Of a stretch of 64,000 bases of DNA, positions 20,702-34,232 are shown piece after piece. Source of the DNA: Ardenticatenaceae bacterium (GTDB lineage Bacteria; Chloroflexota; Anaerolineae; Promineifilales; Promineifilaceae); assembly GCA_020634415.1 (NCBI GenBank), contig JACKBT010000003.1, positions 1 through 64,000 of the forward strand, given 5' to 3'. Each line of letters starts with the position of its first letter. The stretch's first letter is position 1. Both the position numbers and the translations under genes were made by a program. The notes under the pieces were generated by a model. It was not told the DNA's origin and did no database searches. It saw nothing but the letters and a program-made list of their open reading frames with translations.

Positions 20702-21595
20702 TCACCCCTCCTCCGCCTCCCGCGCCACCCGCTCAATCTCCGCCAACGAAGCCCCCCGCGCCCGCTCCAAACGCTCAATCCGCTTCTCAAACTGCCCCAT
20801 CGCAAAATCCACAAAATCCGCCTCCACCAGCCCAAACGGAGCCACCTCATACCGACCAAACACATCCCCAATCACCGCAATCGCCGGCATCAACAGCTCA
20901 TTCATCGTCTCCTCCACCACCTGCCACAACCCCGCATCCACCGCCACCAACCGCGACAACAAATAAATGCCATAAGCAATATGCCGCGACTCATCCTGCT
21001 TCAACAAATAAATCCCCTGCCGCGTACCCGGCAAAATACCATTCTCCTCCAGCACCTTAAAATAAGCCTCATAACCCGTCTCCGCCAGCATCCCCTCCAC
21101 AATCATGTTATACGTCACCGAAGCCCGCACCTGCGCCGCTGGCGACGGATCATGCCGCAGCCCTTGCAGCGCCTGCGGCAGCGCCTCATAAAACAGCGCC
21201 CGATAATTCTCCAGGTGATAATGACTCAAATCAAAAGACGCAAGCTGCGCCACCTCCGTCAAAAAACGGTGGAAAAAATCCGTATGTTTGGCCTCCTCAA
21301 ATAAAAAAGTGGTGAGAAAAAGCTCCTCCTCCAAACGCCCCTCCGCCGCCACCGTCATAATCAGCGGCAGCAAATCCAGCGTCACCGCCTCCTCCCCCGC
21401 CTGAAACAGCGCCGTCAGGTTCAGCAAAATATCCTGCTCCTCGGCCGTCAACCCCTGCCAATCAGCCATATCCTGACTCAGATCAATATCACTAGGATTC
21501 CAAACACCCAGCCGCTTCGCCTTCTCAAATAAACGCATCGGCGGTGCATCCCGCCGCAAACCCCGACTCGTCGTAACAAAAGATTGATGTATCAT
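20702..21595 (-). CDS. R2-like ligand-binding oxidase (R2lox), Mn/Fe ferritin-like protein
   Basis: The 297-residue protein is a ferritin-like four-helix enzyme of the R2lox group, not a class I NrdB. Predicted metal ligands are E68, E101, H104 (FEEAKHTDFF), E167, E202 and H205 (DESRH), matching known R2lox positions within one residue. V71 and Y162 are in the places that form the Tyr-Val ether cross-link of R2lox. R2lox proteins assemble a Mn/Fe centre, bind a fatty acid and activate oxygen; their physiological substrate is unknown. No nrdA is nearby. The start (MIHQSF) has no strong ribosome site visible. Confidence 0.9.
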   Translation of the reverse strand: MIHQSFVTTSRGLRRDAPPMRLFEKAKRLGVWNPSDIDLSQDMADWQGLTAEEQDILLNLTALFQAGEEAVTLDLLPLIMTVAAEGRLEEELFLTTFLFEEAKHTDFFHRFLTEVAQLASFDLSHYHLENYRALFYEALPQALQGLRHDPSPAAQVRASVTYNMIVEGMLAETGYEAYFKVLEENGILPGTRQGIYLLKQDESRHIAYGIYLLSRLVAVDAGLWQVVEETMNELLMPAIAVIGDVFGRYEVAPFGLVEADFVDFAMGQFEKRIERLERARGASLAEIERVAREAEEG

Positions 21596-28358: not shown

Positions 28359-28697
28359 TTACGCAGCCACAGGCTCCAAATGCGGCTCAATTTGAGCCAC
28401 AATGCGCGGCTTGGGCAGCGCCCCTGTGACACGTTCCACAACCTCGCCACCCTTAAACAGCATCAAAGTGGGAATACCCACGATGCCATAACGGCCAGGT
28501 ACGGCTGGATTCTCATCCACATCCATTTTAGCTACGCGCAAACGGCCGTTATACTCCGCCGCCATCTCCTTCACCGAAGGCGCAATCATGCGGCAAGGCC
28601 CACACCAATCGGCCCAAAAATCTACCAAAACCGGCAATTCGGATTCCAATACTTCAGTCTGAAAACTTTCGTCAGTTACTTCAAATGGTTGTGCCAT
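28359..28697 (-). CDS. trxA: Thioredoxin
   Basis: The 112-residue protein has the thioredoxin fold with the redox motif WCGPC (FWADWCGPCRMIAP) and the cis-Pro in GIVGIPTLMLFKGG. It reduces disulfides in cytoplasmic proteins, using NADPH via thioredoxin reductase. AAAGGAG 6-7 bp upstream decides the ATG at 28697; a longer frame to 28724 would read through the ribosome site. A strong terminator follows, so it is probably a single-gene transcript. A thioredoxin-like reductant would also fit the redox-active CxxU protein encoded 4.6 kb away, as speculation. Confidence 0.96.
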   Translation of the reverse strand: MAQPFEVTDESFQTEVLESELPVLVDFWADWCGPCRMIAPSVKEMAAEYNGRLRVAKMDVDENPAVPGRYGIVGIPTLMLFKGGEVVERVTGALPKPRIVAQIEPHLEPVAA

Positions 28698-28812
28698 TTT
28701 TATCTCCTTTGGTTTGTCCTTCATCTGTCAGACAAAGGTTAAAGTGTCAATCTCATTGTATAGATGATCATAGATATGATATTCTTACTCACCAATTTTT
28801 ACAACTTTTGGT

Positions 28813-28889: not shown

Positions 28890-30242
28890 ATGTCCCCAAC
28901 CCTCATCACCAACGGCCGTCTCGTTACCTGGAACAATCCTAACGAGATCATCGAAAATGGTGGGCTGCTGCTGGAAAACGGCCGTATCACCGCCATCGGC
29001 AGCAGCCAGGAACTGGCCGCCCAATACCCCCGCGCCGACCAACTCGACGCACGTGGGCAGCTCGTCATGCCCGGCAGCATCTGCGCCCACACCCACTTCT
29101 ACGGTGCCTTCGCCCGAGGCATGGCCATTCCCGGCCCCGCCCCCAAAGATTTCCCCGACATTTTAGAACGGCTTTGGTGGCGGCTGGATCGCGCCCTCAG
29201 TGAAGAAGATGTCAAATACAGTGCCCTCGTCTGCCTGGTAGATGCCATCAAACATGGCACTACCACCCTCATAGACCACCACGCCAGCCCCAACGCCCTG
29301 CCCGGCTCCCTCGACCAGATCGCCGCTGCCGCCGAGATGGCTGGTGTGCGCGTCGCCACCTGCTACGAAGTCACTGACCGCAACGGCGCGGCCGAAGCGC
29401 AAGCGGGCATCGCCGAAAACATACGCTTCCTCAAAGCCGCCCCACAGCGCCAAAGCGGCCTGTTAGCCGCCACCTTCGGCCTCCACGCCTCCCTCTCCAT
29501 CTCCGACGAAACCCTGGCCGACTGCGTAGCCGCCGCCAAAGAAGTCAAATCCGGCTTCCACATTCACGTCGCCGAACACGAAGCCGATGAGTACGACTCG
29601 CTAGAAAAATATGGCAAGCGCGTCGTCGCCCGCCTCACCGATGCCGGGCTGCTCGGCTCCAAAACCATTTTGGCCCACTGCGTCCACGTTGACCCCACCG
29701 AAATGGCCCTCATCCGCGCCACCGGCACCTGGGTCACACACCAGCCGCGCAGCAACATGAACAACGCCGTCGGCGCGGCCGATATTGAGGGGATGCTGCG
29801 TCTGGGCATTCCAGTTTGCCTGGGCAATGATGGTTTTAGCAACAATATGTGGGCTGAATGGAAGATGACTTATCTCATGCACAAACAGGCTCACCGCGAC
29901 CCGCGCCGCGCTAATGGCATGGACATTGTGCAGATGGCGATTCACAATAATGCTGCGCTCGCCGGCATCTTTTGGCCGCAACTGCCCATTGGCAAATTGG
30001 CCGTTGGCGCCGCCGCCGATGTGATTTTTGTGGATTACCATGCCACCACGCCGCTGACCGCAGGCAATTTACCCTGGCACATCATTTTTGGTTTTGAGAG
30101 CAGTCTGGTCACGACTACAATTGTGGCCGGACAGGTGCTCATGCGTGACCGCGAACTGCTGACGCTGGATGAGGCGGAAATCACCGCCCGCAGCCGAGAG
30201 TTGGCGCAGGGTGTGTGGGCGCGGTTTGAAGAATTATGTTAA
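28890..30242 (+). CDS. Metal-dependent amidohydrolase, SsnA/chlorohydrolase-like
   Basis: The 450-residue protein is a TIM-barrel amidohydrolase. Metal ligands are H67 and H69 (CAHTHFYGAFARGM), a His in HIHVAEHE, a His in ILAHCVHVD and the Asp in GNDGFSNN. SsnA proteins and 8-oxoguanine/atrazine-type deaminases share these motifs, and the LITNGRLVTWN start and ARGM segment resemble SsnA, which is linked to selenium-dependent molybdenum hydroxylases elsewhere. No such hydroxylase is here. CAGGAGG 6-7 bp upstream supports the start. It probably deaminates or dechlorinates a purine-like or triazine-like ring. Confidence 0.88.
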   Translation: MSPTLITNGRLVTWNNPNEIIENGGLLLENGRITAIGSSQELAAQYPRADQLDARGQLVMPGSICAHTHFYGAFARGMAIPGPAPKDFPDILERLWWRLDRALSEEDVKYSALVCLVDAIKHGTTTLIDHHASPNALPGSLDQIAAAAEMAGVRVATCYEVTDRNGAAEAQAGIAENIRFLKAAPQRQSGLLAATFGLHASLSISDETLADCVAAAKEVKSGFHIHVAEHEADEYDSLEKYGKRVVARLTDAGLLGSKTILAHCVHVDPTEMALIRATGTWVTHQPRSNMNNAVGAADIEGMLRLGIPVCLGNDGFSNNMWAEWKMTYLMHKQAHRDPRRANGMDIVQMAIHNNAALAGIFWPQLPIGKLAVGAAADVIFVDYHATTPLTAGNLPWHIIFGFESSLVTTTIVAGQVLMRDRELLTLDEAEITARSRELAQGVWARFEELC

Positions 30243-32967: not shown

Positions 32968-33567
32968 TCAGGCAGCCCGTGATAAAGCCTGGCCTGTCTC
33001 GGCGGCCGCTTGGGTTTGGGCATCAAGCTGCAAACCGAGGCCATCAGCCAGGCGAGTGAGATAGTTGAAAATGCCTACGATGTGCGCCACTTCCAGGCAA
33101 GCTTCATCGTCAAACCCCAAATCGCGCAGGGGCTGCCAGTCGGCTTCGACCATGCGCGTGGGGGTGGCACTTAATTTTTCGGCCAGGGCACAAAGGGCAA
33201 ATTCGCGGGCGGATAGGGTGCTCAGGCTGCGCCAGCGTCTTTCTTTGATGGCGGTGACCAGTTCGTGGTTGTTGTCCTCGACCCGGAGGAACTCTGTGTG
33301 GGATTGGGTTCAGTAGTGGCAGTCTTGGGCGGCGGCGGCGACGGCGGCGACCATTTCCCGCTCGGTGCGGCTGAGGTGGCCGGGGGCAAACATGATTTGC
33401 CCGAAGAGGCGCAGGAAGGCACGGCCGATTGTCCCATGCGCCAGCAGCAACCGTTCCATGCCGGTGAGAAAACCAAAGTCGTAGGGGTTGTGGAGGGTAG
33501 ACGGCCGTTCCGCCCGCAGCTCCGCTTCACGGGGCATCTGCACCCAGGCTTCTGGCAACTCTGTCAT
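32968..33567 (-). CDS. AhpD-like (carboxymuconolactone decarboxylase family) selenoprotein with in-frame UGA (CxxU)
   Basis: Reading through one TGA (33310-33312, minus strand) gives a 199-residue protein with unbroken frame on both sides. The family active site CxxCxxxH appears as C83-H-Y-U86-T-Q-S-H90 (DCHY-U-TQSH), so UGA stands exactly at the second redox cysteine. The rest, MVAAVAAAAQ before and LVTAIKERRWRSL, REFALCALAEKLS and HIVGIFNYLTRLADG after, is typical of AhpD-like peroxidase-related proteins. A 16-nt hairpin with GGU in its loop follows the UGA. The ATG overlaps the stop of the upstream HD gene (ATGA), and the membrane gene begins 4 bp later. AhpD-like selenoproteins are known from marine metagenomes. 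A nonsense mutation is the alternative. Confidence 0.85.
33275..33290 (-). promoter_or_regulatory. Candidate bacterial SECIS element
   Basis: On the mRNA strand UCCUC-CGGGUC-GAGGA forms a 5-bp stem with a 6-nt loop holding GGU. The GU begins 27 nt after the UGA, within the 16-37 nt range known for bacterial SECIS elements. It is inside the coding region, as SelB-dependent elements in bacteria must be. Confidence 0.7.
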
Positions 33568-34232
33568 GGTTCACTTCCAGCCAACAATTGTTTCATTTCG
33601 CGCTGGATATTTTGGCGGGCGGCCTCTTCGCATTGAGCGTACATGACATCCGTGCGGAAAATTCGCTCCCGATCCAGAAAGCTTTGCAACACTTGGGCAC
33701 GGCCGTTGCGATACGCCTCATCTGGCACAAACCCATACTCCTGGCGGATAGCCCCGGCATATTGATCATACACCGCTTCAGCCGCAGCCAGCGTCGCCAA
33801 ATCCGCATCGAGCAGCACATGAAAATTGGGATCATCGGGGGCGACCGCATTCAACTGTGTGGCACATATTAGCTGCTGAACCAGGTCAATGGCCGCTGCA
33901 GGCACATGTAGGGTGGCTAATGTTTGCGCGGCATAAGCGGCACTTTGTTGTTCGTTGCTGGGCTGGCCTGCGCCTAACTGCATGTGGTAAACGACATCAT
34001 GAAACCAGGCTGCCAGTTGCACGGCCGTATAATCCCCCACACACGCCTGTAAACTGTCTACTACCTGCAAAACATTCTGGATGTGTGAGAGGTTGTGGTA
34101 AAAACGGCCGTCCTCCCCATAACACAGCACCAAATCGGCAAACACCCGCTCAGCCACCGCATCCTCCACCGCAAATGGCCCTAAAACCTGCCGCCACTTA
34201 GCCCACAACCCGTTCATATTAACATTCATCAT
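33564..34232 (-). CDS. HD-superfamily metal-dependent phosphohydrolase
   Basis: The 222-residue protein has the HD pattern YHNLSHIQNVL (first His), AAWFHDVVYH (HD pair) and LLDADLATL (last Asp), as in COG4339-type predicted phosphohydrolases. These usually act on nucleotides or related phosphates in the cytoplasm; the substrate is unknown. It is the first gene of an operon with the AhpD-like selenoprotein, sharing an ATGA overlap with it. The start ATG at 34232 is followed by a second ATG one codon later; no strong ribosome site is evident. Confidence 0.85.
   Translation of the reverse strand: MMNVNMNGLWAKWRQVLGPFAVEDAVAERVFADLVLCYGEDGRFYHNLSHIQNVLQVVDSLQACVGDYTAVQLAAWFHDVVYHMQLGAGQPSNEQQSAAYAAQTLATLHVPAAAIDLVQQLICATQLNAVAPDDPNFHVLLDADLATLAAAEAVYDQYAGAIRQEYGFVPDEAYRNGRAQVLQSFLDRERIFRTDVMYAQCEEAARQNIQREMKQLLAGSEP

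Follow-up and report, generated by a model that had tools for sequence, protein, structure and literature searches.

A probable AhpD-like selenoprotein gene in a 64-kb stretch of DNA, and the hairpins downstream of its in-frame UGA

In AhpD proteins, a CxxC pair with a nearby histidine makes up a peroxidase-type or disulfide-exchange centre, in which it is the second of the two residues that attacks the peroxide. Selenoproteins with the corresponding CxxU motif have been on record since 2005, when 27 AhpD-like sequences of COG2128 from the Sargasso Sea were described (PMC1088965). AhpD-like COG2128 is also listed in a survey of genomes (PMC1794560), an account of the GOS set from 2008 gives 299 sequences under 'AhpD-like 1' (PMC2398784), and a 2026 review has an entry 'AhpD-like protein, TIGR01926, CxxU', with MCB9421940.1 as its example (PMC13188914). 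According to the same review, the Sargasso 'hypothetical protein 1' corresponds to NF041238, AhpD_rel_CFYUT (PMC13188914).

Here we analysed a gene of this kind in a 64-kb stretch of DNA, the whole of which we refer to as the window. The original prediction had proposed that the gene encodes a new AhpD-like selenoprotein. The word 'new' did not hold, AhpD-like (COG2128/TIGR01926) CxxU selenoproteins being described in sources that reach back to 2005 (PMC1088965, PMC13188914). The window protein belongs to this already described family and has every feature of it that can be tested, save the energy limit set for the hairpin. Compared by protein model and published description, the two have in common TIGR01926, the CxxU motif, homologues with Cys and a hairpin after the UGA, but most of the relatives found have a stronger hairpin, in a register other than the window's. 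NF041238 (alkylhydroperoxidase-related (seleno)protein) has a related C-terminal domain and the same Sec position; however, its model is 357 positions long and the window protein, at 63.9 bits over residues 63-189 against a cut-off of 175, falls far below it. What the window adds is a very probable selenoprotein gene that comes from a probable Chloroflexota lineage and is cut in two by standard gene callers. As for the family itself, its 41 genomic relatives display a UGA kept at one site across several phyla and an mRNA hairpin under strong selection.

An AhpD-like reading frame with one internal TGA

The frame (Table 1) runs on the minus strand from an ATG at 33567-33565 to a terminal TGA at 32970-32968, and the TGA at 33312-33310, i.e., codon 86, is the sole internal stop in its 199 codons. 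With the UGA read as selenocysteine (Sec), the motif is C83-H-Y-U86-T-Q-S-H90, the UGA taking the place of the second Cys of CxxC; coordinates, frame and motif had all been predicted correctly. We also scanned the six frames of the window for TGA codons that have, on either side, a minimum of 40 open codons and a coding-like codon usage, using a training set from which the selenoprotein gene itself was left out. The TGA at 33312-33310 was the only site returned for the whole 64 kb.

Table 1. Positions of the features discussed, numbered along the window
Feature	Position	Strand	Basis or remark
AhpD-like (TIGR01926), very probable selenoprotein gene, 199 codons, UGA read as Sec	32968..33567	-	one-TGA frame, TIGR01926 score, AhpD-like model
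In-frame TGA, very probably Sec86 of C83-H-Y-U86	33310..33312	-	TGA in 41/41 genome relatives; Cys in other homologues
Putative SECIS hairpin UCCUC-CGGGUC-GAGGA	33275..33290; arms 33290-33286 and 33279-33275; loop 33285-33280	-	comparative
Upstream gene, HD-superfamily-phosphohydrolase-like by homologue names	33564..34232	-	stop overlaps selenoprotein start (ATGA)
Thioredoxin with WCGPC	28359-28724	-	TIGR01068 over cut-off; ~4 kb from selenoprotein gene
SsnA, 'putative selenium metabolism protein'	28890-30242	+	TIGR03314, 532.8 bits vs 455.5; ~2.7 kb from selenoprotein gene

The window protein matches Pfam CMD and scores 119.2 bits for TIGR01926 ('peroxidase-related enzyme', NCBIfam; cut-off 81.8). 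Its AlphaFold model, calculated with Cys in place of Sec from an alignment of 13 rows, has a mean pLDDT of 94, and the best structural match of this model is 6k40, AhpD of D. radiodurans (TM 0.78). The fold is common to 6k40, 2oyo and the debrominase Bmp8 (6ohi), with TM scores by query of 0.78, 0.79 and 0.69 and identities of 31, 28 and 23%, respectively. When the sequence is aligned to those of 6k40 and 2oyo, the TGA lines up with the second Cys of CxxC, these AhpD/peroxidase-related proteins having Cys where the window protein has Sec. The predicted fold is all-helical, with residue 86 inside helix 84-98.

The residue at the Sec column and the Sec machinery

A protein search gave 138 matches, and among the 25 that we examined, several were halves of such a gene, some ending at DCHY and others starting just after the site, as expected of gene callers that stop at UGA. 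In the alignment with 12 other database proteins, conservation extends across the TGA, and the residue at this column is Cys in six of them, Trp in four, Gly in one and Phe in one. Trp and Gly at the column may be UGA translated by other codes, and these five proteins would fit a window organism that reads UGA as Trp or Gly genome-wide (code 4 or 25). Against such a reading, both the selenoprotein gene and the gene upstream of it terminate in TGA, and the scan gave a single internal TGA in 64 kb, where a reassigned codon would be expected in many genes; we regard genome-wide reassignment as extremely improbable.

Genome contigs were scanned with a search pattern that also permitted Cys, Trp or Gly at the column. 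The scan gave 41 relative loci, whose titles name Binatota/Binatia, Chloroflexi, Dehalococcoidia, SAR324, Delta-, Alpha- and Gammaproteobacteria, Actinobacteria, Acidobacteria and others, and the column holds TGA in every one of them. This excludes a sequencing error for the family and makes one unlikely for the window; since none of these 41 close relatives has Cys at the column, TGA is what members of the family normally carry there. In the order nearest to the window organism (see below), a second AhpD-like subfamily (L062-L081), with 33-43% identity to the window protein, occurs in 21 of 56 genomes, and the 20 loci taken from it all have TGA at the same column. Cysteine, which the original prediction expected at this position in aligned homologues, was found there in five distant loci, in addition to the database proteins and the two structures already mentioned. 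One scan of a viral collection found no relative.

These data also bear on whether the TGA is a nonsense change or a sequencing error in an otherwise Cys-encoding gene, i.e., whether the gene is a pseudogene or an artefact. The window's hairpin is weak and the family's conserved hairpin is missing, which would fit a loss of Sec insertion here. However, the same TGA stands in all of the independent relatives, none of which has Cys, and the downstream half of the gene retains its frame, coding-like codon usage (by the scan) and conserved residues (by the alignment), making a pseudogene or artefact very unlikely.

Paired sites were seen as well. Three loci (L046, L055 and L057) each have two adjacent AhpD-like TGA sites, ~0.6-1.1 kb apart, as tandem or fused selenoprotein domains. 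Two database entries (P0022 and P0026) consist of the second half of one AhpD-like domain followed by a second domain ending at DCHY; they are probably fragments of a protein with two such domains and two Sec codons.

As for the machinery that inserts Sec, SelB scored over its cut-off in 34 of the 41 relatives' genomes, compared to two of 14 controls, and tRNA-Sec passed its gathering score in 35 of the 41 by the tool's tally. Since five of the 14 controls passed the gathering score too, we counted tRNA-Sec at 62 bits or more only, which left 33 of the 41 genomes; SelB or a tRNA-Sec of this score was present in 38. Neither was found in the remaining three (G015, G022 and G033), genomes whose completeness is not known. 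To place the window organism we used its RuvB, which, among 400 genomes of the phylum, is nearest to that of G478 (79%) and G272 (78%) and indicates Chloroflexota. Both of these genomes are positive for tRNA-Sec and SelB, and in the order of G478 tRNA-Sec was found in 44 of 56 genomes and SelB over its cut-off in 46 of 56. The 64-kb window itself holds no tRNA and no Rfam match; judging from its relatives, the window organism would have a Sec machinery. A mild hint of selenium use comes from SsnA in the window (Table 1), a protein listed among those whose genes track selD (PMC2276186), and the window organism may have selenium-dependent molybdenum hydroxylases.

That the machinery is deduced from relatives leaves some room for the UGA being a true stop, with an 85-residue product ending in DCHY and the rest of the gene silent or re-initiated, and database gene calls do split the family at DCHY or just after the site. 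Yet such a split would cut one all-helical fold between its two catalytic residues, conservation continues past the TGA, and SelB or tRNA-Sec is present in nearly all host genomes (38 of 41), so that we hold termination at this codon to be highly improbable.

Taken together, the TGA in 41 of 41 relatives, Cys in other homologues and structures, Sec machinery in most relatives' genomes and an RNA hairpin selected in 37 of the 41 (see below) bear out the central claim of the original prediction, namely that the gene encodes an AhpD-like selenoprotein whose Sec takes the position of the second CxxC cysteine. We are highly confident that the gene at 33567-32968 encodes a selenoprotein and that its internal UGA is a selenocysteine codon.

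Hairpins downstream of the UGA

In 37 of the 41 relatives, the TGA is followed by the hairpin CACGCAGA-GUU-UCUGCGUG or a close variant of it (class I), which starts 9 nt after the UGA. Each of its eight pairs is formed in 31 to 37 of these 37 sequences and the loop, GUU, does not vary (n=37); a double change from C-G to U-A occurs in one sequence, and at another pair A-U is replaced by G-U in seven. When we compared the uniformity of codons with pooled usage over 106 amino-acid columns of the 37 relatives, the seven largest excesses were all located at +1 to +9 after the TGA, and the mean excess was 0.38 at the nine columns from +1 to +10, compared to 0.04 at the other 97. Class I is under selection as RNA within the coding region. 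Moreover, the fold of one member (L001) lies 3.5 standard deviations below its shuffles. The window is able to form only four of the eight class I pairs.

The window's own hairpin (class II; Table 1) starts 19 nt after the UGA, with GU 27-28 nt after it, and lies 7-10 nt further downstream than the family hairpin. The same stem is possible in L010, L026 and L032, and L038 has a related stem with a one-base shift. Among the 20 loci of the second subfamily, six (L064, L067, L069, L071, L074 and L080) share the window's register, with the loops CGGGCU, CGUGCU or CGUGCA; eleven of the rest have a third register (mostly with the loop CGGGCU), one resembles the usual type, and two belong to none of these. 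The five inner pairs are formed in all ten sequences that share the window's register (L038 not counted); four of them are invariant, and the outermost is U-A, U-G or A-U as the encoded residues change. This amounts to modest apparent covariation, as one pair varies and several of the ten are closely related to each other.

The energy of the fold tells less. The published bSECIS model has a loop of 3-9 nt, a stem of 4-16 bp, a G in the first two loop positions, 16-37 nt from UGA to loop and an energy of -7.5 kcal/mol or lower, as given in the 2026 review (PMC13188914). The window hairpin, with a loop of 6 nt, 5 bp, G as the second loop position and 24 nt from UGA to loop, lies within the geometric limits, but its energy of -6.1 kcal/mol does not reach the energy limit and is attained by 174 of 200 shuffles. 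For L010 and L032, too, the difference from shuffles is not significant (z -0.37 and -0.52), and the fold of lowest energy is a different structure in each. In 20,000 random synonymous recodings, some hairpin of at least 5 bp with G[GT] in its loop arose in 63%, a stem in the same register in 9.8%, and the same register together with the loop type in 4.7%. Of the SECIS-like hairpin originally described, then, stem, loop and spacing stand as written, and the register is shared with some relatives; significance by folding energy is what failed. Comparison between loci, and not energy, weakly suggests that the hairpin is a SECIS element, and the Sec codon is far better supported than the element that would decode it in the window.

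The two classes raise the possibility that, within one selenoprotein family, one recoding hairpin gave way to a second that occupies the same coding stretch in another register. We put this forward tentatively, as a proposal that could well prove wrong. The hexaloop register would be used by the window, L010, L026, L032 (L038 with its shift of one base) and part of the second AhpD-like subfamily. Masking the hairpin-encoded residues, we built a tree of 41 proteins, in which class II does not form one clade, and a constraint to one clade is not rejected (p-AU 0.129); L020 and L024, both of class I, are absent from the protein trees and included in the codon-uniformity and pair counts. If replacement did occur, SECIS elements would turn over as the Sec codon stays, and the family would offer natural variants on which the least that SelB needs for recognition could be tested.

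We also considered whether hairpin type follows the SelB of the host, an idea that was not supported. In a SelB tree, the class II hosts G010, G026 and G032 form one clade and the window's nearest order another, with the fourth class II host, G038, present as a partial row on a long branch. A GG[GU]CU loop can be read in the Sec-FdhA genes of G523, G518 and G478, from the nearest order, and of the class I hosts G014 and G011 (for G523 and G014 it is part of the lowest-energy fold, whereas for G518, G478 and G011 it was read by eye); a sixth Sec-FdhA locus, that of G542, differs. Given its presence in both groups of hosts, the loop type is not host-specific.

Proposed chemistry and gene neighbourhood

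What follows is our inference on Sec insertion in the window organism, on how its hairpin works, and on the substrate and reductant of the enzyme. SelB, with GTP and Sec-tRNA-Sec and held by the hairpin just downstream in the mRNA, would decode the internal UGA as selenocysteine, giving an AhpD-like thiol/selenol oxidoreductase of the TIGR01926 peroxidase-related family. In this enzyme, the Cys83-Sec86 pair with His90 nearby would form a redox centre that reduces a hydroperoxide or similar electrophile via a selenenyl-sulfide intermediate, Sec in place of the second Cys speeding the attack on the peroxide. The selenenyl-sulfide would then be re-reduced by a thiol donor, possibly the thioredoxin encoded ~4 kb away.

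The overlap between the stop of the upstream gene and the start of the selenoprotein gene (Table 1) suggests possible co-translation of the two. Named homologues of the upstream gene come from a Chloroflexi bacterium (47%) and Candidatus Leptofilum (48%), and also from cyanobacteria; the gene has no Pfam or NCBIfam match, and no HD-phosphohydrolase-like neighbour was found beside the relatives' genes at 61 loci.

By identity, the nearest relative of the selenoprotein gene is L005, a Chloroflexi locus (74-75%). At E values of 1e-35 or lower, no relative was found in 396 genomes of the class of G478; with the same query, three of 100 genomes of another class had relatives at ~1e-80 or better, and G010 itself was recovered too. 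Since no close relative was found in this class and the nearest order has a different subfamily, the window gene may have been acquired by transfer.

When 13 window ORFs were compared with the stretches around RuvB in G478 and G272, RuvB and a weak kinase-like match were all that was shared, and against the 61 relative-bearing loci the thioredoxin alone was matched (in L018). Elsewhere in the window, the minus strand encodes an R2-like ligand-binding oxidase at 20702-21595 (NF006202, 490.6 bits against 315).
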